Positions 8,537 to 63,600 of a stretch of DNA of 64,000 nt are shown in pieces; positions within the stretch are counted from its first letter, which is position 1; the number at the start of each line of letters is the position of its first letter. Location of the stretch: contig NZ_JAPDMS010000001.1 of NCBI RefSeq assembly GCF_026319365.1, positions 110,018 through 174,017 on the forward strand, written 5' to 3'. Under the pieces are notes generated by a model. The model saw only the letters and a list, made by a program, of their open reading frames with translations. It had not been told where the DNA came from and ran no database searches. A program made the translations under genes and the position numbers. This DNA comes from Methylophaga sp. OBS1. Its GTDB lineage: Bacteria > Pseudomonadota > Gammaproteobacteria > Nitrosococcales > Methylophagaceae.

Positions 8537-10780
8537 ATGCGCAAATTAAAGCTTCTCTCTACCTTATTACTGTCCTGCATTACCGGGACGGTTGCGGCCC
8601 AACAGGAACAGGGACTCAGTTGCCACTTTGGTTACGAGGATCTATTCCTGCCGGCATCGGAGGTAGATTCGGAGCAGAGCCCGGTTGATGTCAAAGCCAA
8701 TGATGTGCAGTTACTGCAGAGCGGTACCTCGGTGTTCTCCGGCGATGTCGATATCACCCGCGCCGGTCAGCAACTGAGCGCAGAGCGCGCCACGTATAAT
8801 CGTGCCAGTGGTGATGTTACCGCCAGCGGCGATGTCAGACTGCGTGATAGTGAAATTATCATTGATTCCCAGCAGGCTGAATGGTCGATGCAAAAAGATG
8901 AGGGCAGAATGCTGGATGCCCAGTATCGAATCCGTCAGATGCATGCCCGTGGGCAGGCCAGTCACCTGTTGCGTAAAGGCAAAGCCAGCACAGATTTGAA
9001 AAACGCCAGCTATACCACTTGTCCGGAAGGGGATAATGCCTGGTTGCTGGATGCCGATGAAGTCCACCTGGACCATGTGTCCGGTGTCGGGGAAGCCGAA
9101 GACGTGGTGGTTCGCGTGGGCGGTATCCCCATATTCTATACGCCTTACATCAACTTCCCGCTCAATGATAAGCGTAAGTCGGGTTTCCTGCCGCCTTCAG
9201 TAGGCAACAGTGATGAGACCGGTTTCGATGTCATGACACCCTATTACTGGAACATTGCGCCTAATATGGATGCCACTTTGACGCCGCGATATATGAGTGA
9301 TCGTGGGTTGATGCTGGGCGGGCAGTTCCGTTACTTATCAGAGTGGGGAGAGGGTGAGATCGAGGCCAACTTCCTTGATTCAGACGATCTCAAAAATAGT
9401 GGTGAAGATCTGAATCCATATTACCAGGAGGATCGTGAGTTATTTACCTGGCAGCACCGTTCTTATCTGCCCAACCGCTGGCGTGCGATTGTCGATTATA
9501 ACTATGTCTCGGATGAGAATTATTTCGAGGATTTTGGCTCCAGTCTGAGTCTGTCCAGTCGAACTCACCTGAACCGCCTGGTTGAGACCGGTTATGTGGG
9601 GGATGTCTGGAACTTTACTGCTCGCATGCAGGGCTATCAGACCCTGTCAGATGTACCTGAACAATATAAACGACTGCCTCAGCTACTATTGAGCGGTTAC
9701 CTGCCTGACCAGGCGCTGGGCCTGACCTATGAATTTGATGCGGAGTATGTGGAGTTTGATCACAATGACCGGGTCGAAGGTCAGCGTATTAATTTCGAAC
9801 CGGCTGTCAGTATGCCGATGGGTAACTCAGCCTTTTTTGCCACGCCCAGACTGGCGTTTAACCATACCCGCTACAATCTCAAAAGCGATGATCTGAATCA
9901 GTTTGATGATGATGCATCACGTTCTCTGCCTATAGCCAGTTTTGATACCGGGCTGTTTTTCGAGCGTGAGCTGAACATCGGCAAGGGCAATTTTTTACAG
10001 ACACTGGAGCCCCGGGCTTTCTATCTTTATATACCCGAGCGAGATCAATCGGATATTCCCGACTTTGACACCAGTCTGTCCACATTTAACATGATCCGGC
10101 TTTTCTCCTATGACCGCTTTATTGGTGGCGATCGTATCGGTGATGCCAATCAGCTCTCGCTCGCTGTGACTTCGAGAATCATCAATCAGGAAACCGGTGA
10201 TGAAAATCTGAGGTTGACGCTGGGACAGATTCGCTATTTTGATGATCGCAATGTAACCCTGCCCAATGGTATTGAAAATAGTGATGCTGATTCAGATATG
10301 ATTGCAGAAGCTGTGGCATTCATTAATGACGAATGGTCAGTCAGTGGTGAAATCCAGTGGGATCCGGGCGAAACCGAATCCAATATGTCCTCGGTGGGAC
10401 TGCGCTATCGCGGTGATAAGGGCGGTATTTTCAACATCTCTCATCGTTACCGTCGTGATGGTGCGGATATTACCCGCCTGGAAGGTCTGGAACAGGTCGA
10501 CATTTCAGCCCAGGTGCCGGTCTCAGATCGCTGGCAGCTGTTTGGTCGCTGGTACCGTTCCATCGATCAGGGTAAAACGCTGGAAGCCCTGGCCGGCTTA
10601 CAATACGACAGTTGTTGCTGGGCCACGCGTCTGGCAATACGTAACTACGTCAATGATGCCTTTGACGATGACCGCAATCTGGCCATTTATTTCCAGGTTG
10701 AGCTGAAAGGCCTGGGCGCCTTTGGTAAAAAATCTGACAGCTTGCTGGAGACCAGTATTCGCGGTTATCAGGCAGACTGA
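8537..10780 (+). CDS. lptD: LPS-assembly outer-membrane protein LptD
   Basis: The outer-membrane barrel that, with lipoprotein LptE, inserts LPS into the outer leaflet. From the chosen ATG it has 747 residues: signal peptide (MRKLKLLSTLLLSC...VAAQQ), an OstA/LptA-like jellyroll domain (about 45-190) and a C-terminal beta barrel rich in aromatic strands. The four family cysteines are visible as GLSCHF, YTTCPEG and the doublet DSCCWA. They form the two inter-domain disulfides needed for activity. I chose the ATG at 8537 because GAGG lies 6 bases upstream; ATG 8531 and TTG 8525 are also in frame but badly spaced. SurA, encoded next, is the chaperone for this barrel. Confidence 0.97.
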   Translation: MRKLKLLSTLLLSCITGTVAAQQEQGLSCHFGYEDLFLPASEVDSEQSPVDVKANDVQLLQSGTSVFSGDVDITRAGQQLSAERATYNRASGDVTASGDVRLRDSEIIIDSQQAEWSMQKDEGRMLDAQYRIRQMHARGQASHLLRKGKASTDLKNASYTTCPEGDNAWLLDADEVHLDHVSGVGEAEDVVVRVGGIPIFYTPYINFPLNDKRKSGFLPPSVGNSDETGFDVMTPYYWNIAPNMDATLTPRYMSDRGLMLGGQFRYLSEWGEGEIEANFLDSDDLKNSGEDLNPYYQEDRELFTWQHRSYLPNRWRAIVDYNYVSDENYFEDFGSSLSLSSRTHLNRLVETGYVGDVWNFTARMQGYQTLSDVPEQYKRLPQLLLSGYLPDQALGLTYEFDAEYVEFDHNDRVEGQRINFEPAVSMPMGNSAFFATPRLAFNHTRYNLKSDDLNQFDDDASRSLPIASFDTGLFFERELNIGKGNFLQTLEPRAFYLYIPERDQSDIPDFDTSLSTFNMIRLFSYDRFIGGDRIGDANQLSLAVTSRIINQETGDENLRLTLGQIRYFDDRNVTLPNGIENSDADSDMIAEAVAFINDEWSVSGEIQWDPGETESNMSSVGLRYRGDKGGIFNISHRYRRDGADITRLEGLEQVDISAQVPVSDRWQLFGRWYRSIDQGKTLEALAGLQYDSCCWATRLAIRNYVNDAFDDDRNLAIYFQVELKGLGAFGKKSDSLLETSIRGYQAD

Positions 10781-13128: not shown

Positions 13129-13932
13129 ATGACTGAATCTCACTACCCTCGGGCGCGCAAACGTTTTGGCCAGAACTTTCTTCATGATCAGGCCATTATT
13201 GAAGCAATTATCGAGGTTATCAGCCCCGATAAGGGGGAACATCTGGTAGAAATTGGCCCTGGTCGCGGGGCGCTGACCAAACCACTGCTGAGCCGTTGTG
13301 ACCATCTGGATGTGGTTGAACTGGATCGGGATCTGGTACCGTTGCTGAAACAGCAGTTCGCTGGCCAACCGCATCTGACAATTTATGAAGCTGATGCCCT
13401 TAAATTCGACTATCAACAACTGCAGCAGAATGATGAAAAGCTGCGGGTGATCGGTAACCTGCCTTATAACATTACAACCCCGCTGTTATTCCATCTTATC
13501 GAGCAATCCGCGTGTATTGAGGATATGTGCTTTATGCTGCAACGCGAAGTTGTTGAGCGCATCTGCGCTTCACCGGGTTCAAAGCAGTATGGTCGTTTGA
13601 GTATTATGCTGCAGCATCAATGCTACGCAGAGCAAATGTTCATCGTACCGCCTGAAGCCTTTGACCCCCCTCCCAAAGTCGAATCTGCGATTATTTATCT
13701 GCAACCTCTGTCACAAAAGAAAGGCGGCGATGTGGATAGGGATTGGCTGAATAAGCTGGTCACGGTCGCGTTTAGCCAGCGCCGCAAGACGATCGCTAAC
13801 ACATTGAAAAAACTACTATCTTTGGCTGACCTGGAGCAGGTGGGGGTCAAACCGGAACAACGTCCCGAGACAGTCACCATTGAACAATATGTGGCAATGG
13901 CGCGTCGCCTGGAACAGAAACAGGCAACCTGA
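13129..13932 (+). CDS. rsmA: 16S rRNA (adenine(1518)-N6/adenine(1519)-N6)-dimethyltransferase
   Basis: KsgA, which dimethylates two adjacent adenines in the 3' hairpin of 16S rRNA late in 30S assembly. It has 267 residues from MTESHYPRARKRFGQNFL. The SAM-binding motif I reads EIGPGRGALTKPL, the acidic motif VVELDRDLVPLL follows, and the catalytic motif IV is GNLPYNITTPL. The C-terminal helical domain (VAFSQRRKTIANTLKKLL) is present. An upstream extension of the frame would overlap pdxA and has no family support. Loss of this gene is known to confer kasugamycin resistance. Confidence 0.97.
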   Translation: MTESHYPRARKRFGQNFLHDQAIIEAIIEVISPDKGEHLVEIGPGRGALTKPLLSRCDHLDVVELDRDLVPLLKQQFAGQPHLTIYEADALKFDYQQLQQNDEKLRVIGNLPYNITTPLLFHLIEQSACIEDMCFMLQREVVERICASPGSKQYGRLSIMLQHQCYAEQMFIVPPEAFDPPPKVESAIIYLQPLSQKKGGDVDRDWLNKLVTVAFSQRRKTIANTLKKLLSLADLEQVGVKPEQRPETVTIEQYVAMARRLEQKQAT

Positions 13933-14025
13933 CAATATTCATGGCCTGAATCAGATTGTCAACCTTATGCCGAAGATTCCGGCTGAAGCCCGATAAAATC
14001 TATTTACAAACAGTGATCCGTTGTC

Positions 14026-14054
14026 TTGACACGCTAATTTTGCTGTAGTTAGAT
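14026..14054 (+). promoter_or_regulatory. Candidate sigma-70 promoter of hupB
   Basis: A perfect TTGACA (14026-14031) is followed after 17 bases by TTAGAT (14049-14054), a weak -10. An 18-base spacer would give TAGATA instead. It lies about 90 bases before the HU start, in the otherwise empty stretch after rsmA. An imperfect GACAAT/ATTGTC hairpin at about 13931-13960 directly follows rsmA but lacks a T-run. Confidence 0.5.
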
Positions 14055-14142
14055 ACACACAGTCCGGTCTCGCTGAGCCAGGTAGCAGCGAATCCGGCAT
14101 TTGGACGACATAACGATCAATAACGATATGAGGAATTAAGCT

Positions 14143-14415
14143 GTGAATAAATCTGAACTCATCGATGCAGTTGCTGCAGCTGCAGACATCTCTAAAGCAA
14201 AAGCCGCCCAAGCTGTTGATGGCATGACATCAGCTGTCACTAAAGCGCTGAGCAAAGGCGACCAGGTCACGCTGGTTGGCTTCGGTACTTTCTCTGTTCG
14301 TGAGCGCGCTGCACGTACTGGCCGTAACCCACGTACCGGCGAAGAAATCAAAATCGCTGCGGCTAAAATTCCTGCTTTCAAAGCTGGTAAAGCACTCAAG
14401 GATGCTGTAAACTAG
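14143..14415 (+). CDS. hupB: DNA-binding protein HU-beta
   Basis: A 90-residue histone-like protein that bends and compacts DNA. It has the HU fold with the DNA-embracing arm [14 protein letters not shown] and the hinge [12 protein letters not shown]. The start codon is GTG, with AGGAATT about 6 bases upstream. In gammaproteobacteria hupB commonly lies upstream of ppiD, as here, although clpX and lon are not seen in front of it. Two tRNA genes start 12 bases after its stop codon and are probably read on the same transcript. Confidence 0.97.
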
Positions 14416-48482: not shown

Positions 48483-48962
48483 ATGGCTAAAAAGAACAAA
48501 AAGAAAACACTCAGTGACAACACCATCGCGGTCAACCGCAAGGTTCGTCATGACTTTTTTATCGAAGAGACCTTTGAAGCAGGAATATCTCTTGAAGGTT
48601 GGGAAGTAAAAAGTCTGCGTGATGGCAAGCTGCAATTAAACGAGAGTTATGTGCATATCCGTCAGGGCGAAGCCTATCTGGCTAATGCTCTGATTTCTCC
48701 GCTTAAAACCGCTTCCACCCACATCGTGCCCGAATCACAGCGCGACAGAAAACTGTTACTGCACCGTCGCGAGCTGGATAAGCTCATTGGCGCCGTCGAG
48801 CGCAAAGGCTACACCCTGGTGCCACTGACAATGTACTGGATGAAAGGAATGGCCAAGCTAAAAATCGCACTGGCCAAAGGTAAGCAACTCCACGACAAAC
48901 GCGCCACAGAAAAAGAACGTGACTGGCAGCGCGACAAAGCCCGTATCCTCAAAATGAAATAG
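48483..48962 (+). CDS. smpB: SsrA-binding protein SmpB
   Basis: Binds the tRNA-like part of tmRNA and delivers it to stalled ribosomes. It has 159 residues. The oligonucleotide-binding barrel has [20 protein letters not shown] and [19 protein letters not shown]. The C-terminal tail [19 protein letters not shown] folds into the mRNA channel. ssrA lies 548 bases downstream on the same strand, separated by a palindromic repeat array. Confidence 0.97.
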
Positions 48963-49490: not shown

Positions 49491-49510
49491 GTCCATGTAA
49501 CACAAGCTTT

Positions 49511-49874
49511 GGGGGCGACCTGGCTTCGACGGGGATCGCAAAACCTGAGGTGCATGCCGAGTATTTCAGTTCTTCTCGTAAAACAGACTGAAACTTAAAA
49601 TAGTTGCTAACGATAACAACTACGCACTAGCTGCTTAATAACCAGCAAATGCCGTCCGACCAGACCCGTGCTTGTGCGACTGGTATCGGGCGTCGACTCA
49701 CACAAGATCGTCTCGACGTAAGCTAGGTGCGAAGAGACTAAAACTTTGACTAGCTCGCTGTCTGTTTGCCCTGTCCATCGGGTTGCAGCCAGTTAAATCA
49801 AAAGATGGAATAAGCATGTAGATCCAACGGCGGAGGATCTCCGGACGCGGGTTCGATTCCCGCCGCCTCCACCA
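49511..49874 (+). ncRNA. ssrA: Transfer-messenger RNA (tmRNA)
   Basis: A 364-base tmRNA with encoded CCA. The 5' tRNA-like half opens GGGGGCGACCTGGCTTCGAC and pairs with CGCCTCC at the 3' end (acceptor with one G-U). The T arm reads GGGTTCGATTCCCGCC. The resume codon is at 49606 and the tag reads ANDNNYALAA, ending with TAA at 49636-49638. The 3' end is the insertion point of the genomic island that follows. The gene itself looks intact. Confidence 0.98.
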
Positions 49875-49883
49875 ATCGAATAG

Positions 49884-49909
49884 AGAAACCACCCTCGGGT
49901 GGTTTTTTT
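49884..49909 (+). terminator. Terminator of ssrA, part of the left island repeat
   Basis: AACCACCC pairs with GGGTGGTT around TC, followed by T's. It starts about ten bases after the tmRNA CCA. Most of it is repeated at 60425-60449. Confidence 0.88.
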
Positions 49910-49915
49910 GTGTCT
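49891..49915 (+). repeat. Left direct repeat of the ssrA island (attL-like)
   Basis: These 25 bases, covering the ssrA terminator stem and T-run, are identical to 60425-60449. Flanking bases (CCAATCGAA...) also match the right copy with small gaps. Confidence 0.8.
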
Positions 49916-50255: not shown

Positions 50256-50612
50256 ATGGAAAGCATTACTGAAGAGACTATTACTGCAATTCTAAACCTT
50301 TCCCTTCACGTCTGTATGGCTGATGGGGTTCTATCTGAAGTCGAAGAACAGTCAATTATCGAACAAATCAAGGACTGTTTCGAAATTGTCGATGAAAACG
50401 CACTCAGAAACTCAATAGATAATTTTTTTGACTCTGATCATCCGCTAGATGGTCTGATAGCTCCTCTGGTTGATACGGTCTATCTAAAAAAATCGTTAAA
50501 AATTGCATATTTTGCGGCTGACGCAGATGGCCTTGATGTTAGAGAGAACATTGCTTTTCAGAGGGTTCTGCGTTCATGCAATTATTTCCTAGAGGATATC
50601 GTTGATGTCTGA
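50256..50612 (+). CDS. Small TerB-like helical protein, first gene of the defence operon
   Basis: A 118-residue acidic protein predicted to be all-helical. Two acidic repeats, MADGVLSEVEEQSIIEQI (about 21-38) and AADADGLDVRENIAFQRVL (about 87-105), have the pattern of TerB/DUF533-type domains. There an A-x-A/M-D-G-x-x-x-x-E motif forms a metal-binding helix-loop. TerB domains occur in tellurite-resistance and phage-defence operons. Its end overlaps the start of the GHKL ATPase gene, so it belongs to the same operon. The TerB assignment is by motif only, and no function is claimed. Confidence 0.75.
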   Translation: MESITEETITAILNLSLHVCMADGVLSEVEEQSIIEQIKDCFEIVDENALRNSIDNFFDSDHPLDGLIAPLVDTVYLKKSLKIAYFAADADGLDVRENIAFQRVLRSCNYFLEDIVDV

Positions 50613-51960
50613 ACACATAGACCTGTCTCCAAATCCAATCGCACACATAAGAACGCTTAGTAGCATTGGCTACAACCTCAACAGCGCCATTGCAGACATT
50701 ATTGATAACTCCATTACCGCTCAAGCCAAGAATATTTGGGTTGATGCAGAGATAAGAGGTAATTCAGTAAAACTGAGAATTACTGACGATGGCTTTGGTA
50801 TGAGCCGTGATGAGTTGATCGAAAACATGAGGATCAGCTGCAGAGACCCTTTCGAGGAGAGGCATGAGAACGATTTGGGACGCTTTGGTTCTGGAATGAA
50901 AACAGCAAGTTTCTCTCAGGCAAAAATACTAACTGTCATTTCTAAAACCAGTGGTTCTAGTCCGGCTGTCGCAATCTGGGACCTGAATTTTGTAGAAGAA
51001 AAAAATGCATGGCTGATTAGACTGCCGCAAGTTGAACAGTTCAATCTGCTTTACCAAGAAGAGATTAATTCACTTTCCTCAGGCACAACCCTCATTTGGG
51101 AGCAGATCTATAGATATTCTGATTTAAATGAGGGAGAAATTGAAACCACAGTCTCAGCTGATATTGCTGCATTAAAAAAGTTTCTCTCACTCTATTTTCA
51201 TAAGTTCCTGCAATCAGGTCTAAGAATTTTTATAAACAGGCAGGCAATAACACCAATCGACCCTTTTTTGACTAAATCTAAAGGCTATCAGGAAGGCCCC
51301 TCGCAATCCTTCAGGGTAAAAAAAGGTGGCAAAGTTGAGATACGTGTACATACACTGCCTCATGAGTCAAAACTGACCAAGAAAGAGCTTGATGATCTTG
51401 GTGGACCTGGCGAACTCACAGCCAATCAAGGTTTGTATGTCTACCGTTCAAACAGGCTCATTATCGCTGGCGGCTGGCATGGGTTAACTCAGTGGACACA
51501 GCTCGGAAAGCTGGCGCGTGTGGAGGTTAATGTGCCAGCTTCTCTGGACTCAGAGTGGGGTACAGATGTAAAAAAAGCAACGCTGGAAATACCCACCAAG
51601 ATCAGAACAAAACTCAAACAGCTGATACAGGATCCTATCAAGAGATCAAAGCGCTCATATAGGTATCGTGGCCAAGTAGAAGAGGCTAATTCCTTTTGGG
51701 ATATACGAGAGAATGATAGAGAGGCCACGGTCACTTACGAATTATCACGTGATAACAATCGATTGAAAGATATACTTGAACATGTAGACAAGGAAACGGC
51801 TGACAAACTTGTTGCATACCTCATAGACGTCTCATCAACTCTTCCTATCAACCACATCTACGAAAAGATGTCATCCAAACCAAACAGTATCGATCAGACA
51901 AAAATTGAATTTAGTGATCTCCTTAAGGAAGTTGAACATTTATGGAAAAAGCAAGACTAG
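50605..51960 (+). CDS. MORC/MutL-like GHKL ATPase of the defence cluster
   Basis: A 451-residue protein with an N-terminal Bergerat-fold ATPase. The N-box is SAIADIIDNSIT (28-37), the G1 box DDGFGM (61-66) and the G2 box GRFGSGMKTAS (92-102). The form A-x-I-I-D-N-S-I is that of MORC-type ATPases rather than histidine kinases. A second S5-like domain follows (about 200-330, LYVYRSNRLIIAGGW), as in MutL, MORC and Hsp90. No MutL endonuclease domain is visible. Prokaryotic MORC-type ATPases next to DNA methyltransferases and Z1 helicases were described by comparative genomics (Iyer, Abhiman and Aravind, 2008). ATG 50605 overlaps the preceding stop codon by 8 bases; the TTG at 50602 is less likely. 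Confidence 0.9.
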   Translation: MSEHIDLSPNPIAHIRTLSSIGYNLNSAIADIIDNSITAQAKNIWVDAEIRGNSVKLRITDDGFGMSRDELIENMRISCRDPFEERHENDLGRFGSGMKTASFSQAKILTVISKTSGSSPAVAIWDLNFVEEKNAWLIRLPQVEQFNLLYQEEINSLSSGTTLIWEQIYRYSDLNEGEIETTVSADIAALKKFLSLYFHKFLQSGLRIFINRQAITPIDPFLTKSKGYQEGPSQSFRVKKGGKVEIRVHTLPHESKLTKKELDDLGGPGELTANQGLYVYRSNRLIIAGGWHGLTQWTQLGKLARVEVNVPASLDSEWGTDVKKATLEIPTKIRTKLKQLIQDPIKRSKRSYRYRGQVEEANSFWDIRENDREATVTYELSRDNNRLKDILEHVDKETADKLVAYLIDVSSTLPINHIYEKMSSKPNSIDQTKIEFSDLLKEVEHLWKKQD

Positions 51961-54806
51961 AAGATTCATTCAAGAATATTTTTCGCCTATGTGAAGAGGC
52001 AAAAAAAGCAGGGCAAATAGTAGATGTCGCATTCATTGATAGTCTTGTCGAGCATCTCCGATCCAGCCCTCTACGACAATATGATGATTTTACAGATGAA
52101 GACTGGAAGTTAATCAAGTTCAGGGTTGAGTCCAGTATCAACATTGATATCCAGGAACAGAGCACTTCACTGGTAAGTAAGGATGTTGAGAGATGGCTTA
52201 ATCATAAACGTGCCGATATCTCATGGAACTATTGGAATGCATATAGAGAACTTTTAGTTGATAACGGCCGTTCAGAGAGTGTCATAAATGACACAGAGAA
52301 AGTCATAGATGAAATTCTTGACGCGAGTGGTGACCCGAATTTAACAGGCCCTTGGAAACGCAAAGGCCTGGTAATGGGTAATGTTCAGTCAGGAAAGACT
52401 CAGAATTATCTTGGTCTCATTAATAAAGGTATCGATGCTGGTTATAAGGTAATTATTCTGCTCGGTGGACACCTGAATGAGTTGAGAAAGCAGACTCAGG
52501 AGCGTGTAGATGAGGGAGTGACTGGTCGAGAATCTTCTCACTTGGCTAAATTGAATACAGGCAATGCTGAGAGGGTAGGTGTTGGCTTATATAGAGATAA
52601 GGATCTGGAAGTTTTTACATTTACTTCCACAGAGAGTGACTTTCATAAGAATCTTGAACAGATAAGGTTTCCATTTACACAGGTCAATGCGCCTGTGGTT
52701 CTCGTCATAAAAAAGTGGGCATCGGTTCTCAAGAGTGTGAACAAGTGGATTACAGACAAGCATGATCTTGACCCTGAGAATAATATCAAACTCAAAATGC
52801 CACTTCTCTTGATTGATGATGAGGCTGACTATGCATCCATCAACACAAAGAAAAAAGTATCAAAAGTTACCACCATCAATGCTGGTATCCGAAGTCTGCT
52901 GAATCTGTTTGAGCGTTCAACTTACATCGGTTATACAGCGACACCTTTTGCCAATATCTTTATAGATCCTGACGAGGATGGGGATGAACTGATTGGTGAT
53001 GATCTTTTCCCTGAGAATTTCATGGTGAAGATGCCAATTCCAGATAATTACGTCGGACAAAATCACTTCTTTCTGTCTGAAGAAGATGATGATTCATCCA
53101 GTCCGGTAATTGTTGTTGATGATTACCACACAACCATACCTAACAAGAGTAATAAGTCATCTAAACTGACAGATTTATCAGAGTCTCTGAAAGATGCGGT
53201 CAGAGCTTTTCTTATCGTCACAGCTTGTAGAAGCTGCAGAAAAGAGAGTCGGGCCCATAACACGATGCTAGTCAATATGACGCACCTCACTGCTCTGCAG
53301 GATCAGTTGGCCGGGATGATTGATTCTTATGTAGGTGAAATAAGAAATGCAGCTGATTTTGCACTTGGATACTCTTCAGATAAAGCAGTTATAAAATCAT
53401 CTCTCATCAATCAACTTAGAGAAACTTTTAACAACCGCTTCTATGATATTCCGGAAAGTTTTGAGGATATCTATCCTTTCCTGAAACAGGCAATTTTCAA
53501 GACGGAGGTCTTGGCGGTTCACGGAAAAGGCGACACACTGGATTATAGTCGTTATCAGGAGAATGGTCTGGCTGTAATTGTCGTCGGAGGACACAAGCTT
53601 TCTAGGGGGCTCACCTTGGAAGGACTTACGGTTTCATACTTCACACGTAATTCAAAAATGTACGACACACTGATGCAGATGTGTCGCTGGTTTGGCTACA
53701 GGCCTGGCTATAAAGACCTATGCAAGTTATATCTCACTGAAGAGTCACTTGAATGGTATACCTTCATTTCTGAGGCTATTCAGGAGCTCTATCACGAGCT
53801 TGAGAGAATGTCCCGACAGAAAAAAACGCCAAGCGAGTTTGGCTTGAAGGTTCGTGACTATCCTGGCGCACTCCTTGTAACTGCAAAACAGAAGATGGAT
53901 ACAGCTGAAGCCTATACCAGATCGATGGACTTGTCTGGCTCGAGGATCAGAAGGTTTGAGTTCTTCACTGATGATCAATCAAACAACAATAATATAAATA
54001 CTGTGAATGGATTTATAGCCAACCTTGAGAAGCTTTATAAACACACCAAGACAGATAATGGCTCAACGCTTTTCTATGATGTGAATCATGAGGATGTAAT
54101 AGCGTTCATGCAAATGATGAAGCTCGCTGAGGACGAAATTCCTGATTATCTGATTGAACAGTACATTCAAAAGCTGAAATTGAACGGGTTACCTAACTTC
54201 AGGGTGTGTGTAAAAAATTTCACAGGTAACTCACCTGATACGTGGTGGTCAAAGAAGCTTCTCGAAGAATATAACATTACACTGCCAGGGAACTATACCT
54301 TCCCGTCACCAGTGGGCTTAGTTAAGGCTGCTAAACGAAAACTCACCTATTCAAGAAACAAGCAAACAATGAGACAGCCCAGCTCAGAGTTGGGTGAGAA
54401 AACAGACGAAAGGTTATTTCTTCCCAAAAGTGAGTTTGTAAGCACACGTTCTGATTCGGTTACAGATGACATAAGGCATCCAGACAGAGACTTCCCCGGG
54501 CTAATTTTGTATACCTTCGCTACTGCAGTTGTTAAAGCGAAAAGTGGTGTTAAGGGAACTAAAGGTAATAATGATGGTGTGGATAAGCCTCACTCAGATG
54601 TCACTGTCGGTTATTCATTGTCTTTTCCGGAGCCGGACAACCTCAAAAATAAACCTAAGGATGAAATAGAACGGATCAGAAAAAATACAAAAGTCAGCTA
54701 CCTCACAAATAAGGTGTGGCGTGATATGACGGCCTTTATTGATGATGAGCCAGAATTTGACGAAGGGGCCGGGGTAGAAGAGGAGACAGACGAAAATGAC
54801 AGCTAG
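51942..54806 (+). CDS. Z1-domain superfamily II helicase/ATPase
   Basis: A 954-residue protein of the Z1 (PF10593-type) family. An N-terminal helical region (1-130) precedes the helicase core. The Walker A reads GNVQSGKTQ (146-154), the Walker B a literal DEAD (293-296, LLIDDEADYASI), and motif III is IGYTATPFANIF (329-340). Motifs V and VI lie around 545-600 (GHKLSRGLTLEGL, MQMCRWFGYRPG). The Z1 domain follows, with an acidic C-terminal tail. A role as a DNA translocase acting with the neighbouring ATPase and nuclease is inference from family context. It overlaps the previous gene by 19 bases and the next by 11. Confidence 0.93.
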   Translation: MEKARLEDSFKNIFRLCEEAKKAGQIVDVAFIDSLVEHLRSSPLRQYDDFTDEDWKLIKFRVESSINIDIQEQSTSLVSKDVERWLNHKRADISWNYWNAYRELLVDNGRSESVINDTEKVIDEILDASGDPNLTGPWKRKGLVMGNVQSGKTQNYLGLINKGIDAGYKVIILLGGHLNELRKQTQERVDEGVTGRESSHLAKLNTGNAERVGVGLYRDKDLEVFTFTSTESDFHKNLEQIRFPFTQVNAPVVLVIKKWASVLKSVNKWITDKHDLDPENNIKLKMPLLLIDDEADYASINTKKKVSKVTTINAGIRSLLNLFERSTYIGYTATPFANIFIDPDEDGDELIGDDLFPENFMVKMPIPDNYVGQNHFFLSEEDDDSSSPVIVVDDYHTTIPNKSNKSSKLTDLSESLKDAVRAFLIVTACRSCRKESRAHNTMLVNMTHLTALQDQLAGMIDSYVGEIRNAADFALGYSSDKAVIKSSLINQLRETFNNRFYDIPESFEDIYPFLKQAIFKTEVLAVHGKGDTLDYSRYQENGLAVIVVGGHKLSRGLTLEGLTVSYFTRNSKMYDTLMQMCRWFGYRPGYKDLCKLYLTEESLEWYTFISEAIQELYHELERMSRQKKTPSEFGLKVRDYPGALLVTAKQKMDTAEAYTRSMDLSGSRIRRFEFFTDDQSNNNNINTVNGFIANLEKLYKHTKTDNGSTLFYDVNHEDVIAFMQMMKLAEDEIPDYLIEQYIQKLKLNGLPNFRVCVKNFTGNSPDTWWSKKLLEEYNITLPGNYTFPSPVGLVKAAKRKLTYSRNKQTMRQPSSELGEKTDERLFLPKSEFVSTRSDSVTDDIRHPDRDFPGLILYTFATAVVKAKSGVKGTKGNNDGVDKPHSDVTVGYSLSFPEPDNLKNKPKDEIERIRKNTKVSYLTNKVWRDMTAFIDDEPEFDEGAGVEEETDENDS

Positions 54807-55773
54807 TCTCTACGACTTTTTCAAAGATGATCCTTGGGCTGATATTGAACAAGGCACTTATCCAAAATCTGCTCGCAGGCTTTACTCTGAGGACGATCGC
54901 TTCTGGGTCTCTGTTGATGAAGCAGGTCAGAAACTTTTTTTCATAGAAGAGCCTGTAATCTGCGAGGTGGATACAGACCTCAAAGTGTCCTGTTTACGGG
55001 TAGACATGGTAAAAATGAACAGTTCTACTAGATTAGTCTGCACTCTTGTCGAGGATGAATTAAAAGACAAATTCTCTACTGTTACCAAGGACATCGCTCA
55101 TTATTGTTCCTCACATCAAGGGCTAAAGTTATTCCAGCACGCTGTTGAACGTATTTTATCTTGGGGAGAGTTCTTGAAACCCTCCAGAGAGGGGCTGAGG
55201 CATAGTGAGTTGGTCGGCTTCTGGGGAGAGCTCTATACGCTGAAAAAACATATTTCTCCACACTTACAAATAGACAAAGCAGTGTCAGGCTGGGTTGGAC
55301 CACTTAAGAAAAAACAGGATTTTACGCTTGGGGAAACCAGCATAGAGGTAAAAACTTCCCAATCCGGCGATGGGAATGAGATAAGAATCTCGTCACTGGA
55401 GCAACTCCAGAAACGAACGGAAAAGTTATATTTACTGACTCTGCGTATTGTTAATACTAAAGAACAGGATGATTTGAGTCTTGAAGACCTCTATCTGGAG
55501 ATTGTTCAAGAGTTGGAGTTTTCTCCTGTTTCTAAACGTGATTTCCTGCAGAAAGCTGCATCACTTTATGGAAAAGCAACCCAAAGCCAGTTGAAGACCA
55601 AATTTATAGAAGTCGACCATGCTATATATGAGGTCGATGATGATTTCCCCAGACTCGTTCCTGAAAATATACCTGGTCCTAGTATCGTAAGGGTGAGTTA
55701 TTCAATCGATGAAAATGCACTTGGCAAACATCGTATTCTGGATGGAATAAAGGATCTATTATCAGATGGATGA
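54796..55773 (+). CDS. PD-(D/E)XK motif nuclease (DUF4420)
   Basis: A 325-residue protein. The nuclease core is visible in the middle: E145 in GFWGELYTL, D175 in KKQDFTLGE, then E184 and K186 in TSIEVKTSQS (the ExK pair), followed by ISSLEQL. These are the acid and lysine residues of the PD-(D/E)XK fold. The family is found almost only in Z1/MORC/AIPR operons, so it is probably the DNA-cutting subunit. It overlaps the Z1 gene by 11 bases and the AIPR gene by 8. Confidence 0.9.
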   Translation: MTASLYDFFKDDPWADIEQGTYPKSARRLYSEDDRFWVSVDEAGQKLFFIEEPVICEVDTDLKVSCLRVDMVKMNSSTRLVCTLVEDELKDKFSTVTKDIAHYCSSHQGLKLFQHAVERILSWGEFLKPSREGLRHSELVGFWGELYTLKKHISPHLQIDKAVSGWVGPLKKKQDFTLGETSIEVKTSQSGDGNEIRISSLEQLQKRTEKLYLLTLRIVNTKEQDDLSLEDLYLEIVQELEFSPVSKRDFLQKAASLYGKATQSQLKTKFIEVDHAIYEVDDDFPRLVPENIPGPSIVRVSYSIDENALGKHRILDGIKDLLSDG

Positions 55774-57865
55774 ATTATTAGAATTTAGGGAACAGTTCCT
55801 TAACCGGATTAAACTTGCAGCAGAATCCCACCTCTCAGCTGAAGAAGAGAAGTTTTTTGAAGATATCTCAGAGTCGTTATCTGAGGCCGGTATTTTGGAT
55901 AACGTTGAGTATTCGCCCTACAGGAACTCTAATAAAGGTCTCAAAATAGACGGATACAGTTGGAATGACCTTGAAAAGTCGCTGACAGGAATCATCACTG
56001 ATTACGAAGGCCTGGATGAGATCTCAACCATCAATAAGGCCGATATTCTCAAATTAAGTAAAAAGGTAGAGCGCTTTCTAGATAAGGTTGAAGACAAGTC
56101 GTTCTTGGATGAGCTTGAAGAATCTACCGATAGAGTTATAGCCACGAGTATGGCTTATTTTCTACCTGATGCAATTAAGTGCAGGGTGGTTATTCTTACA
56201 GACAAGAAACTCAGTGACCGGGTTAAGAAAATAGAAATTGAGGACATTAAAGGTTTACCAACCTCAATTGAAATTTGGGACATAGAGCGAATCCGAATAC
56301 TGAATGATTCAGGTACGGAAAATGAACCATTTACAGTTGACTTTATGGAGCTTTGTAAAGGCCTGAGTGTTCTTCCAGCTAACATTAATCCAGAAGATAC
56401 AAGTACATACCTCTGTGTTGTGCCTGGTGAGGTTCTCAGCAAACTTTACGATGAATATGGTCAAAGACTTCTTGAAGCAAATGTTAGGACATTTCTAGAC
56501 TTCAGGTCCTCGGTCAATAACGGCATCAGAAAGGCACTTCTGACCGAGCCTGAAAATTTCTTCTCCTATAACAATGGGTTGACGTGTACCGCTACTGGAA
56601 TCAAAACAGAGGTTATTGATGGCAGAGAGGTGATTACGAGTCTTGATGACTTGCAGATTGTAAACGGGGGCCAGACAACCGCTTCGATATATTTTTCACC
56701 TCGTGAAAAAGGTGGAATAGGAGAGTTGAGGTATAAAGACATAGATCTCTCGAAAGTTTTCGTCCAGATGAAGCTGACAGTCATTACTGAGGAAGAAAAA
56801 AGAGAGATTCTAAAGTCTAAAATTTCACAATACGCTAACACACAAAATGCGATCCAGAAGTCTGATCTTGTATCTAATCATCCTTTCCATCTGAATCTGG
56901 AGAAACTTGCCCTTACAATACCAATGCCTGCAGGTGAATCTGGCTTATCCACGAAGTGGTTTTATGAGCGGGCTCGCGGACAATATGGAACTAGAATACG
57001 AGCTTTGAGTTCTGCGAAACGAAACCAGTTTGAACTTGAGTTTCCCAAAAATCAGAAATTCAATAAAACGGACATGGCAAAGTTTGAGAATACCTGGCGA
57101 ATGAACCCTCATGAGGTTAAAAAGGGTGCCCAAGCTAACCTGAGATTATTAGGGGCAAAAATAGCAGATGAGTATGACAAGGACGACTCAAGCTTTAAGC
57201 ATGCCTTTTACAGAGAGCTGATTGCGAAGGCTATACTCTTCAAATCCGCAGACTCTGCCATCTTAAAGTCAGACTGGTACAAGGAAGAGAAAGGTTTCAA
57301 GGCTGAGACAGTTACATTTACATTGGCACTACTCAGGCACCTTCTTATCAAAGATGGTAAAGACATAAACTTGGAACGAATCTTCAAAAACCAGTCAGTT
57401 TCCTCATCACTTTTAGATGAGATAGTTAGCCTTGCTAAGTTTGTGAGAGAAAAAATACTCGATCCGAATTTTAGACAGGGTGTTGGTAACCCCTCTGAGT
57501 TCTGTAAATCAGAGAAAGGTTGGAATCTTGTCAAAAAACTTGATTACGATTTGAGCCTCATCAACAGAGCAGACTATGTGGATGCAGAGCAGAAAAGAGA
57601 GGCAGAACACAAAAATGATGAGATAAATGAGGCAGGTGCCCAAATTGAGTCACAAACATCCGTTATGGAAGTGACAGCGGATGAGTGGCTCGCAATCAAG
57701 GAGTTTTTTAAAAATATGGGCTATCCGATCGACCATAAAAATGTTGCCTTACCTGAAAAATGCTCTTTCATAAGTAGTGGTAAGTGGTTCCCAAGTGAGA
57801 GGGAGAGCAAAGTGGTGATGGATGTGAGGAAGCAGGCATACCTGAATGGCTTTGATTTTGTCTGA
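55766..57865 (+). CDS. AIPR (abortive infection phage resistance) family protein
   Basis: A 699-residue protein with the AIPR domain in about residues 240-540. Motifs are RTFLDFRSSVNNGIRKAL, NFFSYNNGLTCTATGI and DDLQIVNGGQTTASIYF, the NGxQT pattern typical of PF10592. Related proteins are linked to abortive infection against phage; their biochemistry is not settled. The last ~60 residues (TADEWLAIKEFFKNMGYPID) look like a small separate domain. It is the last gene of the five-gene plus-strand operon and converges on the methyltransferase gene with 26 bases between stop codons. Confidence 0.92.
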   Translation: MDELLEFREQFLNRIKLAAESHLSAEEEKFFEDISESLSEAGILDNVEYSPYRNSNKGLKIDGYSWNDLEKSLTGIITDYEGLDEISTINKADILKLSKKVERFLDKVEDKSFLDELEESTDRVIATSMAYFLPDAIKCRVVILTDKKLSDRVKKIEIEDIKGLPTSIEIWDIERIRILNDSGTENEPFTVDFMELCKGLSVLPANINPEDTSTYLCVVPGEVLSKLYDEYGQRLLEANVRTFLDFRSSVNNGIRKALLTEPENFFSYNNGLTCTATGIKTEVIDGREVITSLDDLQIVNGGQTTASIYFSPREKGGIGELRYKDIDLSKVFVQMKLTVITEEEKREILKSKISQYANTQNAIQKSDLVSNHPFHLNLEKLALTIPMPAGESGLSTKWFYERARGQYGTRIRALSSAKRNQFELEFPKNQKFNKTDMAKFENTWRMNPHEVKKGAQANLRLLGAKIADEYDKDDSSFKHAFYRELIAKAILFKSADSAILKSDWYKEEKGFKAETVTFTLALLRHLLIKDGKDINLERIFKNQSVSSSLLDEIVSLAKFVREKILDPNFRQGVGNPSEFCKSEKGWNLVKKLDYDLSLINRADYVDAEQKREAEHKNDEINEAGAQIESQTSVMEVTADEWLAIKEFFKNMGYPIDHKNVALPEKCSFISSGKWFPSERESKVVMDVRKQAYLNGFDFV

Positions 57866-57891
57866 TTAGGGATAAATGCTACCAATACAGC

Positions 57892-59676
57892 CTAGAAAAG
57901 CCCCTTTTTTTCTAAAATTTTAAGAACATGGTTGGCTATTTGTTTAGCTAGAAATGCTGGTACTGCATTTCCGACTTGTTGGTATTGCCAGCCTCTGGTT
58001 CCCTCAAAGTAATAGTCATCGGGAAAGGTTTGTATTCTGGCTGCCTCTCTGACAGTTAAAGATCTATTTTGACTAGCATCATAATGTATTTGGGCATGAC
58101 CATCTTTTCTTAAGTGACTTGTGATGGTCAGAGGGACCATATCTGAGCCAATAGTCCTGAACCTATCTGCTTGATTACCAGACTCCCAGTTCTTATGGTC
58201 TGGCGATAATGCAAATGGAAAATCTTTACTCTTTGGGAAAGGACTTTTCTGATGTTTGTGTGCATTTGCCCATGATGCAGAAAACATATACCTTTGCAGG
58301 TCACTAATCATGTGCTGCCTGGTATCATGATTTGGAACGCCATCGAGACTTCTATTCAACCAGTTATATAGATCTGGGTATTTATATTTGAAGTTGTCAT
58401 CGTATGGGGGATTGTTGCCTTCTTGCTTACAAAAAAGCGCATTCCCCCTACCTGCATTAATGTCAGTGATATCCCCGGATAGTTTGAGTTGCTCGACTTC
58501 TTTGAGGGTATTAGCAAAGGATGTTCTGATCTTCTCAGCATCCTTGGAATTGAAGTTCGATAATTTTTTATTATTTCTATCGATGACCCGTTCTATTTCT
58601 CTCTTATCAGAGAGAATTGAAATCAAATGGTCTCGATTTTTTTCCCAAGTAGATATCCAGTTTTTATGGCTATCGTTCAATGTTTCACTTTTTTGGCTGA
58701 TACCACTTCTGAGCTTAGGCAAGCCGCTCAGTAACTCACTTGTTGAAGGGGTGGGTAGGACATCTTCCCTCATAAAATCATCAACAGGACCGTACTTGTG
58801 TTTGATACCGAGAAGTATCACGCGCTTGCGAGCTTGAGGAACTCCAAATTTACTTGCGTTAATAACTAATTTCTTATTGCTTTTGTAGAGAGGCCCAGCA
58901 GTATCTGTAGCTGGTTCATCTGGTTCACGGACAAGTGAATATATGTCGTAATGTTCGTTATCCTCAATTTTGTCAGGCCTTACCAGTTCACGTTTGATTC
59001 GTTCAAAAATCAGTTCACCTGTGGCCAGTTTTGCACTCAGTATGCCTTCGACATTTTCCATGACAAAGACATCTGGATCAGCTTCATCAATTACTCTCAA
59101 ATACTCTTGATAGAGGAAAAAACGCTCATCATTTTCAGGTGAGTAATCCTTTATTGCCTTGATTCTATTTCTGCCATTAACGGAATATGCCTGACAAGGT
59201 GGTCCACCAATGACTATTAAGGGTCCAGTAGTTGAAGATTTAATTTGTCTGATACGCTCAATGATTTCCAATTCATCTTGAGTTTCCTTGTCATCTACAT
59301 CGCTGATTGGCTCACCTTTTCGTATTTTTTTCCACTTATCAGGTTTACCCAGTGCTCGAGGTTTTAAAAGAGTTTCTTTGCGAGCTTCGTCCCATTTATC
59401 ACGACATTTCTGGATCATCTCTTCCTTTCTGGCTTTCTTGGTATCTTCATCACTACTGGTGATGTATGGATAGTAGAAGAGTTCACGCTCTTGTTTAGTG
59501 AGTTTTCTATAAAAAGACCGCAATGTCAGCGTGTCATGTGCGTTTTTTTCGTACTCGACAGACATTGCAATTTGAAATGGGGAGTTGGGACGACAGTTGC
59601 TGAAACCTTCACCGAGCCCCCCCGGGCCAGCAAACAAATCGATAACGGTAATTTTATTTTTTGAATTACTTTTCAT
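57892..59676 (-). CDS. dcm: DNA (cytosine-5-)-methyltransferase
   Basis: A C5 methyltransferase that would mark host DNA for this system. It has 594 residues from MKSNSKNKITVIDLFAG. Motif I is DLFAGPGGLGEGF (13-25), motif IV GGPPCQAYS with the catalytic Cys162, and motif VI MENVEGIL. Motif VIII is QARKRVILLG and motif X QVGNAVPAFLAKQIA. The gap between motifs I and IV is about 110 residues longer than in small enzymes and rich in Lys/Glu. The target site is not readable from sequence. The frame extends to 59784 but that part overlaps the vsr start and lacks family similarity. No clear ribosome-binding site is seen. Confidence 0.93.
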   Translation of the reverse strand: MKSNSKNKITVIDLFAGPGGLGEGFSNCRPNSPFQIAMSVEYEKNAHDTLTLRSFYRKLTKQERELFYYPYITSSDEDTKKARKEEMIQKCRDKWDEARKETLLKPRALGKPDKWKKIRKGEPISDVDDKETQDELEIIERIRQIKSSTTGPLIVIGGPPCQAYSVNGRNRIKAIKDYSPENDERFFLYQEYLRVIDEADPDVFVMENVEGILSAKLATGELIFERIKRELVRPDKIEDNEHYDIYSLVREPDEPATDTAGPLYKSNKKLVINASKFGVPQARKRVILLGIKHKYGPVDDFMREDVLPTPSTSELLSGLPKLRSGISQKSETLNDSHKNWISTWEKNRDHLISILSDKREIERVIDRNNKKLSNFNSKDAEKIRTSFANTLKEVEQLKLSGDITDINAGRGNALFCKQEGNNPPYDDNFKYKYPDLYNWLNRSLDGVPNHDTRQHMISDLQRYMFSASWANAHKHQKSPFPKSKDFPFALSPDHKNWESGNQADRFRTIGSDMVPLTITSHLRKDGHAQIHYDASQNRSLTVREAARIQTFPDDYYFEGTRGWQYQQVGNAVPAFLAKQIANHVLKILEKKGLF

Positions 59677-59750
59677 TTTTTGCAGGTCAAAATTTTCAGG
59701 TAATAATACCAGGTTATCCAGTAAAAACCAGGACATGGTGGAGGTCATTT

Positions 59751-60206
59751 GTGGCTGATGTTTTTGACAAAGAAACCAGATCAAAAAATATGTCTCGTAT
59801 CAGGGCAAAAGACACTAAGCCTGAGCTACTAATCAGAAGGGAGCTTCATAAAAGGGGATATAGATATCGCTTACACAGAGCTGACCTCCCTGGTAAACCA
59901 GATATGGTTTTGCCAAAGTTTAGGGCAGTAATTGAGATACGTGGTTGTTTTTGGCATGGGCACAATTGCCACTTATTCAAGTGGCCTAAATCTCGAAGTG
60001 AGTTCTGGGAGAGAAAAATTAATCAGAATATAGTTCGGGATAAGGCAAACACAAAAAAGCTTGAGGAGTTGGGCTGGAGAGTTTTAACGGTCTGGGAATG
60101 TTCGATAAAAGGAAAGACTCGTCTTGGCAGTACGCAACTCATAGAGCGGATAGTTGATTGGATAGTTGCAAATAAAAATAGCAGTTCAATTGAAGGAGAA
60201 ATATAA
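59751..60206 (+). CDS. vsr: Very short patch repair endonuclease
   Basis: Nicks 5' to the T of T:G mismatches formed by deamination of 5-methylcytosine, protecting sites made by the neighbouring methyltransferase. It has 151 residues. The catalytic residues line up with E. coli Vsr: E25 (DTKPEL), D51 (GKPDMV), H69 (CFWHGH). The zinc-ligand cysteines are in IEIRGCFWHGHNCH. I chose the GTG at 59751 because GGAGG lies 6 bases upstream and VADVFDKETRSKNMSRIR is the standard start; a frame from TTG 59661 is longer but unsupported. It is divergent from the methyltransferase gene, with about 74 bases between the starts. Confidence 0.95.
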   Translation: MADVFDKETRSKNMSRIRAKDTKPELLIRRELHKRGYRYRLHRADLPGKPDMVLPKFRAVIEIRGCFWHGHNCHLFKWPKSRSEFWERKINQNIVRDKANTKKLEELGWRVLTVWECSIKGKTRLGSTQLIERIVDWIVANKNSSSIEGEI

Positions 60207-60625
60207 GGCGCATAATCATAAGTCATTGGCTTCACCTTTACCGCCAAGTTCAGCTTATGAAACGGATAATTCTTCTCAAATAAGCTTTAAAATCAATTCA
60301 ATATCATGACTTTTTTATATCTCTCATTGACGGGGCAAGCTGATATTCTCAGTTGGTAGCATATATCAATATCAACACACTAAATTTTAAATTAGCTTCG
60401 CGCCGCCCCAATCGAACAGAAACTACCCTCGGGTGGTTTTTTTGTGTCTGCACCATTAATAGAAATATACAGTTATTTGAATGTTGCTCCGGTGTTCTAT
60501 TGGTAGATTTTCCCCGCCTGATTTTCTTTTTCCACCTGGTAAGCGTCACAGACCGTTCAAAATTGTTGACGAATCCTTCTGTGCTTAGGAAGATAGCCTC
60601 ATAGCCATTGGGAAAGCCAGTCTCT
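60207..60625. other. Non-coding right end of the island and chromosomal junction
   Basis: No credible gene is seen. From 60398 the sequence resembles the tmRNA 3' end and its terminator (CGCCGCCCCAATCGAA, then the 25-base repeat). Past 60450 the DNA returns to chromosomal composition and leads to the GGDEF-EAL gene. Short frames at 60353-60604 (+) and 60349-60759 (-) have no family resemblance. Confidence 0.6.
60425..60449 (+). repeat. Right direct repeat of the ssrA island (attR-like)
   Basis: Identical to 49891-49915. The copy still forms a stem followed by T's, with one weaker pair (CTACCC/GGGTGG), and may terminate transcripts from vsr. Upstream bases differ from the left copy by small gaps, suggesting an old insertion. 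Confidence 0.8.
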
Positions 60626-63600
60626 ATGCGGATCAGAGAAAAAATCAGTCTTATTGTCATCGTTAGCATACTGATTACGGCGATACCCACAGCGATACTG
60701 ATTACAGCTTTTGCCAAAGAGAAGATTCTGAGTCGTGAGGTTAAGAATCTGTTAACCATGACTGATAGTCAGGTTGACGTGGCATCAGAGCGGTTGCGAG
60801 CAGGGGAGCAGAAGCTAAAAGCATTATCACGGCTATTACAGGAAGCGCTGCAAAAGCCGGTAACGCAACAAGAAATCGATGCTTTTTATCAGGAGGCCAC
60901 GCTGAATGATGATGGCATCTGGCGTAACCGTCGTGATGATTATGACGGACAGCAGGAGGCCGGTATTTTTCTGCCGGATTCGTCAGCACTCAGCGATCAG
61001 CAGAAAGTCATGCATCTTCGTATCAAGCAGGTTATGGATACCTTTGGTGCTGCAGCCAACCGTTTGCACGAAAATGTCTGGTATCTGTCTCGGGACCGCA
61101 GCGAGGTCATTTTCGATAAGACTTTTCCTGAGTTTGTTTTTGATCAAGACGCTGATAATGACTACACCCAGACACCCTGGATGACATTGACTTCCCCCGA
61201 ATCAAACCCGGCTCGCGGCTATCGGTTTACACCGCCACTATTTGATCCGGTGCCGAAAGTTTGGATGGTCAGTGCAGTCTATCCCCTTTACTTGAATGAA
61301 CAATGGATGGGTGCACTTGGGGAAGATATGCAACTCACTAATGTTTTGGGGTTTATCTTCCGTGATCAGCAGATGTACCCGGATACGCAGCACTTCCTGC
61401 TTGATAAAGAAGGGGAGTTTATTCTTGCCGGTCAATGGCAGGAGGCACTTGAGGCGGCAACGGATCAGGATGATTTCGCGTTGAATGGGGAAGACGAATT
61501 AAAAGCGTTACTCAATACCCACTCACTGGATTACGCCTCGGTATTGTTGTCACGGAATTTGATGATTGATGGCGAGGAATATATTGCGCTGGGCATGCGG
61601 ATTGCCCCGGTGGACTGGTCTTATTTCCGTTTGGTACCTGTGGCTAATATTGTTGAGCCGCTGCAACAGTTACTGTTCATGTTGTTCGTCATGGTCTTTG
61701 TGATTACTGCGGTGTGTGGTGGGCTGATCACGGCGGCGATTCACACCAATGTTGTGTCGCGTTTGACCCGTCTGACCCGGGCAATTCGATCTTATGAATC
61801 CGGTGACCGAAATGTGGTCGCGCAGAGCGTGAAAGGCAAAGATGAAATTGCCATGGCTGCGCGGGAATTTGATGTTATGGCCGAGCGTGTGGCGGACGCC
61901 AGGCAAGCTTTGGCTGAGAGTGAGGAACGCTGGAACCTGGCCCTGGAGGGGGCCGGTGACGGGGTCTGGGATTGGAATATCACGACGGGAGATGTCCTTT
62001 ACTCCAAACAATGGGCACGAATGCTCGGGTTTAAAGAGCATGAGATTTCCCCCGAGATTTCGTCCTGGGATGAGCTGGTTCACCCGGATGATATTGGAAA
62101 AGCCCGCGAGCATCTGGATGACTACCTCAGTGGTAAGAGCGCCGTTTTTGCTGCTGAATTCAGAATGCGCTGCAAGGATGGCAGTTGGAAATGGATTTTG
62201 TCACGCGGCATCGTGGTCGAGCGGGACCGGGCACAGTGCCCGACCCGGATGATCGGTATGCATACCGATATTTCTTATCTCAAACAAATCGAAACAGATC
62301 TTCGGACACTGACAAAACAGCAACAGGAATTGCTGGAATACAGCCCCATCGCGACAAGGATTGCTGCTGACGGTGGCAGAAAAGTGATATACGCAAACCG
62401 GGGCTACGCAGAGCTGATAAAGCGTGACGCTGATACGGTGCTCGGTGCTGACCCTGCTGATTATTATGTCGATGAAGCACAATACCAGCATTACCTGAAG
62501 ACCCTGGAGCAGGATGGCAAAGTGTCTGATGTGCTCACTCGTCTGCAGATACCCGATGGTGAAGAAAAGGTGGTGCTGGCCACCTATATGCCAATTCAGT
62601 ACGAAAACGAAAAATGTGTCATCGGCTGGTTTTATGATGTGACCGAGTGGTTGAAAGCACAGGAAGCCTTACGTTTACACGCCAGCGTTTTCGATAATGC
62701 CTGGGAAGGTATCCTGATCACCGATAAGGACAATCGCATCATTACCGTTAACCATGCTTTCACTGAAATTACCGGTTATGGTCAAAATGAGTTGATAGGT
62801 GAGGATCCGGGCGTGCTGGCTTCCGGTCGTCAGGATAAAAGTTTCTACGACAAGATGTGGAAAACCATTCACGAGACGGGGCGCTGGCGAGGTGAAATCT
62901 GGAACCGTCGGAAGAATGGTGAGTTTTATGCCGAAATCCTGACTATCAGTGCCATTAAGGATGAGCAGGGCGAAATCACTAATTATCTCGGCCTGTTCGC
63001 GGATATTACCGAAATAAAAAATACCGAGCGTCAACTGGAGGATCTGGCTCATTACGATTCGCTCACCCAACTGGCCAACCGGACATTGTTGTCTGACCGG
63101 CTTGAGCAGTCATTGAACCATGCCCGACGCCGAGGCAGTATGCTGGCAGTGTGTTTTCTTGATCTGGATGATTTCAAGCCTATCAATGACAGTTTCGGCC
63201 ATGATGTTGGCGATAAACTACTGATTGAAGTGGCAAATCGTCTTAATCAGGTGGTTCGAAGTGGTGATACGGTTGCTCGAATGGGCGGCGATGAGTTTGT
63301 TCTGCTGATCACCAATATTGAGGATCTTCAAGAACTGGATCCGGTGCTGACCCGTATCAACAAGAAAATTGCAGAAGAAATTTCACTGGATAGCCATATT
63401 GTCTCTGTTACCGCCAGTATCGGCGTAGCAATTTATCCGTTGGATGATGTCGATGCCGATACCCTGATTCGTCATGCTGATTTATCCATGTATGAGGCCA
63501 AGCAGGCGGGGCGTGACGGTTACCATATTTTTGATGTCAAACTCGACCAGCAGATGCATGCGCTGCATGCCCGTATTGAACAGGTTGCGGCAGCGCTGCG

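Follow-up and report, generated by a model that had tools for sequence, protein, structure and literature searches.

A TerB-bearing MORC ATPase, helicase, and nuclease cassette at ssrA in Methylophaga resembles a restriction system with its own DNA methyltransferase

We analyzed a window of 64,000 nucleotides from Methylophaga sp. OBS1 (contig NZ_JAPDMS010000001.1; coordinates are positions in this window unless another record is named). Within it, seven intact genes are packed together, and they have the look of an antiviral system that cuts DNA and brings along an enzyme for marking DNA. Systems of this general kind have been described before; the small TerB-like protein is an extra of this branch. 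The new aspects are the TerB-bearing group, its carriage here as a cassette at ssrA, and a methyltransferase that appears to be exchangeable among relatives. The original prediction had described this cluster from the letters and reading frames, and profile searches returned the families that it named.

The cluster begins with a TerB-like protein of 118 amino acids (50256..50612, plus strand). The predicted TerB fold is there, but the Pfam TerB score of 17.8 bits is below the gathering score of 24.4. NCBIfam returned nothing for this protein and PADLOC only two weak matches, both to HamA; whether either library contains an MzaA model was not verified. Next is a GHKL ATPase of 452 amino acids (50602..51960, plus strand), which likely starts with the ATG at 50605. 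It matches HATPase_c_3 (1.1e-32), and when its family profile was compared to the Protein Data Bank (PDB), MORC4, MORC3, and MORC2 came first (1.5e-9 to 2.8e-8), ahead of MutL. This agrees with the claim that it is of the MORC type. Within GLYVYRSNRLI (277-287), the residues G277, Y279, Y281, R282, R285, and L286 are invariant in 26 sequences.

The helicase (51942..54806, plus strand; PF10593, 3.2e-73) has unchanged motifs in 26/26 sequences. These include DTLMQMCRWFG at 575-585, where D575, T576, L577, Q579, M580, R582, W583, F584, and G585 are invariant. The DUF4420 protein (54796..55773, plus strand; 325 amino acids; PF14390, 5.6e-53) is a PD-(D/E)XK nuclease with E145, D175, E184, and K186. 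The last three had been picked out from the sequence as its active site, and they hold up across the family: E145, D175, and K186 are invariant, and E184 is conserved in at least 90%.

The AIPR protein (55766..57865, plus strand; 699 amino acids) matches PF10592 (3.3e-89) and PF22879 (9.3e-31). In a structure model (predicted local distance difference test, 83.1; predicted template modeling score, 0.49), its N-terminus is predicted to adopt a PD-(D/E)XK fold that lacks the customary lysine. Fold matches of the model identify a restriction-endonuclease core, and instead of a catalytic D plus (D/E)xK, the family has D62 (25/25), D79 (21/25), and E, S, N, T, D, or V, never K, at position 81. The middle part is possibly ParB/Srx-like. 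The model allows a specific proposal about the active site of this “abortive infection” protein, which an earlier paper reads as HEPN-containing.

Beside this core lie a C5 cytosine DNA methyltransferase and a Vsr mismatch endonuclease, again as predicted. The methyltransferase (57892..59676, minus strand; 594 amino acids from the ATG at 59676) matches PF00145 (5.6e-47), scores 146.3 bits against TIGR00675 (cut-off 100.65), and has the PCQ and ENV motifs in an alignment. We do not propose a CCWGG-type specificity, as the subfamily model PRK10458, that of E. coli Dcm, matched at only 34.8 of 710 bits. Vsr (59751..60206, plus strand; 151 amino acids from a GTG at 59751) matches PF03852 (9.8e-32) and aligns to 1cw0 over residues 2-147 (phmmer, 4.2e-44). 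We rejected a genuine overlap of the dcm and vsr genes because it rests on upstream TTG starts only.

To describe related loci, we use T for the TerB-like gene, M for the MORC ATPase, Z for the helicase, D for DUF4420, A for AIPR, and C for the C5 methyltransferase. Counting co-occurrence, the original prediction's own proposal for a check, gave a C5 methyltransferase next to 35/36 complete M-Z-D-A loci, including the window's, and a vsr gene in 19/36 (1/11 of the complete T loci). An adjacent methyltransferase is what classical self-guarded restriction-modification systems have. Among 15 pairs of loci with a reported helicase identity of at least 80%, which share loci and so are not independent, the methyltransferase co-diverges with the core in 12 (66-100%). 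Core and methyltransferase mostly co-diverge in the Bacillota loci as well. Still, the methyltransferase appears to be exchangeable between cores whose putative cutting machinery is much the same, to judge from sequence identities: the loci L001 of Shewanella sp. MBTL60-007 and L002 of Motilimonas sp. E26 are 86–91% identical in M, Z, D, and A, and their methyltransferases are 41–47% identical, with a region before motif IX that differs by eye. Also, several distinct groups of C5 methyltransferase are paired with cores of the T clade.

These loci vary in other ways. In L018, L022, L023, and L028, MORC is preceded by a shorter type of C5 methyltransferase (about 350-360 amino acids), and after this enzyme comes a similar-looking protein with a length of about 210 amino acids. 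In both L128 (4659-6984) and L129 (4719-7050), the C5 methyltransferase, which is convergent with the T-M-Z-D-A operon, is preceded by a regulator with a WYL/WCX domain and by a divergent second TerB-like reading frame. Two IMG/VR contigs that are catalogued as viral, L029 (34.5 kb) and L030 (107 kb), carry M-Z-D-A-C sets.

The cluster is carried on a 10.5-kb, AT-rich insert at the transfer-messenger RNA (tmRNA) gene ssrA (49511..49874, plus strand; found with ARAGORN; tag ANDNNYALAA), which lies downstream of smpB (48483-48962). GC content falls from about 50–52% to 40–42% in the cluster. Direct repeats bound the island: on the left, the 3' end of ssrA with its terminator (49861..49915, plus strand), and on the right, a degenerate copy of both (60401..60449, plus strand); a 32-nt repeat within them (49884-49915 and 60418-60449) is 97% identical. 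Such direct repeats at attachment sites are a mark of site-specific integrative elements. The open reading frames of at least 110 codons that lie between the repeats comprise the seven genes, an antisense frame (58388-58837), and a frame that crosses the right repeat (60349-60759); none is a recognizable integrase, and the last two have no Pfam match.

To examine this site in relatives, we considered the genus of G169, which is the nearest relative by SmpB (92%) in a sample of 369 genomes. The ssrA stretch is present in 20 of the 24 genomes of this genus, and we compared 12 of these. In L108 the site is empty: ssrA is 98.3% identical, the window's right-flank gene (74%) is about 100 bp further on, and the 3' end of ssrA is not repeated. 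In L107 (8252-19519, with the record's orientation reversed), an 11.2-kb insert follows ssrA; the 3' end of ssrA recurs at its far boundary (67 nt, 89.6%), and the same right-flank gene lies beyond. This insert encodes a type I restriction-modification system (HsdM, HsdS, and HsdR), an FRG protein, and proteins with NucS_C and HNH nuclease domains, with no recognizable integrase. Because the same site holds a type I island in L107 and is empty in L108, we conclude that the ssrA 3' end accepts restriction cassettes in this genus, with the inserts of the window and of L107 as the two cases. In L109, L110, L117, and L118, a distance of roughly 0.9 to 6 kb separates the right-flank gene from ssrA, and a second ssrA end is not reported beyond that gene; in the remaining 6/12 stretches, some of which are short, the right-flank gene was not found.

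In two of these genomes (L118 19236-19905 and L117 47-722), the 3' part of the tmRNA gene is split by about 270 nt. The split, which looks like an intron, falls between the matches to 49507-49858 and 49858-49915 of the window. We did not accept a group I intron, as a comparison of L118 with Rfam showed no intron. L118 also has a cyclic di-GMP riboswitch aptamer (c-di-GMP-I; 9831-9909, 54.3 bits).

We consider it moderately likely that the cluster is a methylation-guarded restriction system. Its proteins would form a complex, and the host's DNA would be spared through methylation; we infer all of the steps in between. This reading draws on the profiles and motifs of the proteins, on the adjacency and co-divergence of the methyltransferase, and on the type I island at the ssrA site of L107. 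It also draws on the TerB-like protein of Shango, which has been tested, and on MZA. Several observations weigh against it. The cores of L001 and L002 contain no sharply divergent segment that would fit a matched target-recognition domain. L006, the sole complete locus without a C5 methyltransferase, is 92–94% identical to L007 in M, Z, and D, and has no C5 methyltransferase nearby or elsewhere in its 2.0-Mb, possibly incomplete, metagenome-assembled genome. (At the place of L007's methyltransferase, L006 has a 396-amino-acid protein at 13143-14333 with no Pfam match and, by eye, TerB-like segments.) The residue before GCFWH in Vsr is R, where the E. coli enzyme has H. And the general base of GHKL ATPases is usually glutamate, but this position is aspartate in 26/26 of the MORC-type ATPases, which could mean slow or altered ATP turnover.

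L006 would be easier to understand if the core were an effector that acts independently of the methyltransferase. This is a serious rival, if a doubtful one, and it fits the apparent swapping of methyltransferases and the scarcity of vsr in the T loci. MZA, which the available part of PMC9523054 describes as validated, is also a system whose name includes no methyltransferase. But the retention of the methyltransferase in nearly all complete loci is hard to explain if it is dispensable, its co-divergence in the Bacillota points the same way, and L006 comes from an assembly without a stated completeness. Alternatively, the methyltransferase may be the subunit that gives the complex its specificity, following a BREX-like logic. 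A swap would then redirect marking and attack alike, so that the core itself could do without a target-recognition domain. Being one form of the restriction reading, this idea partly coincides with it; we think it rather unlikely. It would suit L001 and L002 and the variety of methyltransferases in the T clade, but it leaves L006 unexplained, two methyltransferases at 41–47% identity could share one target motif, and co-divergence is the commoner pattern. It is very improbable that the cluster is a housekeeping module for DNA repair or mutation avoidance and not defense, although its MutL-like ATPase, helicase, and Vsr do recall mismatch and very-short-patch repair (an idea raised in the available part of PMC2292703). 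Overall, the predicted kind of system stands, and the role proposed for it, methylation-sensitive restriction or abortive infection, is supported in part. The methyltransferase exchange between L001 and L002 makes it possible to test whether the core recognizes DNA on its own or is directed by the methyltransferase.

MORC ATPases act in gene silencing in animals and plants. The match of the window's ATPase family to the PDB is confined to a part of the GHKL domain (profile positions 34-126), and the family differs from the eukaryotic proteins by its aspartate at the N-box base. In the literature we examined, we found no account of how bacterial MORC ATPases act in restriction systems.

MZA is said to be the mzaABCDE system of Gao et al. 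2020. Homologs of MzaB to MzaE are present here in the same order, with PADLOC matches of 1.1e-59 (MzaB), 3.6e-108 (MzaC), 3.7e-21 (MzaD), and 1.4e-68 (MzaE). However, all four are far under the NCBIfam equivalog cut-offs (256/850, 459/1500, 132/420, and 335/1050 bits), and therefore we do not file the cluster as MZA proper. The TerB-like gene is at the place expected for MzaA, which is a sigma factor according to the available text of PMC9523054, and the window has a methyltransferase and vsr too. The top PADLOC match of the methyltransferase is DrmMII of DISARM (3.9e-88), but no DISARM family is among the listed matches of the other six proteins.

That this grouping is known from comparative genomics, as originally stated, is borne out by two papers. 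In the part available, Iyer, Abhiman and Aravind (2008; PMC2292703) describe operons of MORC, a superfamily II helicase, and a nuclease, often with C5 methylases and VSR, as predicted restriction systems; for their third MORC operon type, that part mentions neither a TerB-like gene nor a cassette, an insertion site, or an exchange of methyltransferases. The accessible portion of Miller et al. 2022 (PMC9523054) describes a putative defense system whose type II set lists a “putative transcriptional regulator”; the small gene here has a TerB fold and may differ from that regulator; “tellurite,” “Vsr,” and “very short” are absent from its main text. Finally, the experimentally tested Shango system (PMC10250203, in the part available) is like the window's cluster in being an antiviral operon where a TerB-like protein occurs together with a helicase and an ATPase. 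The TerB-bearing group would be a further antiviral setting for the TerB domain, after Shango and Bunzi.
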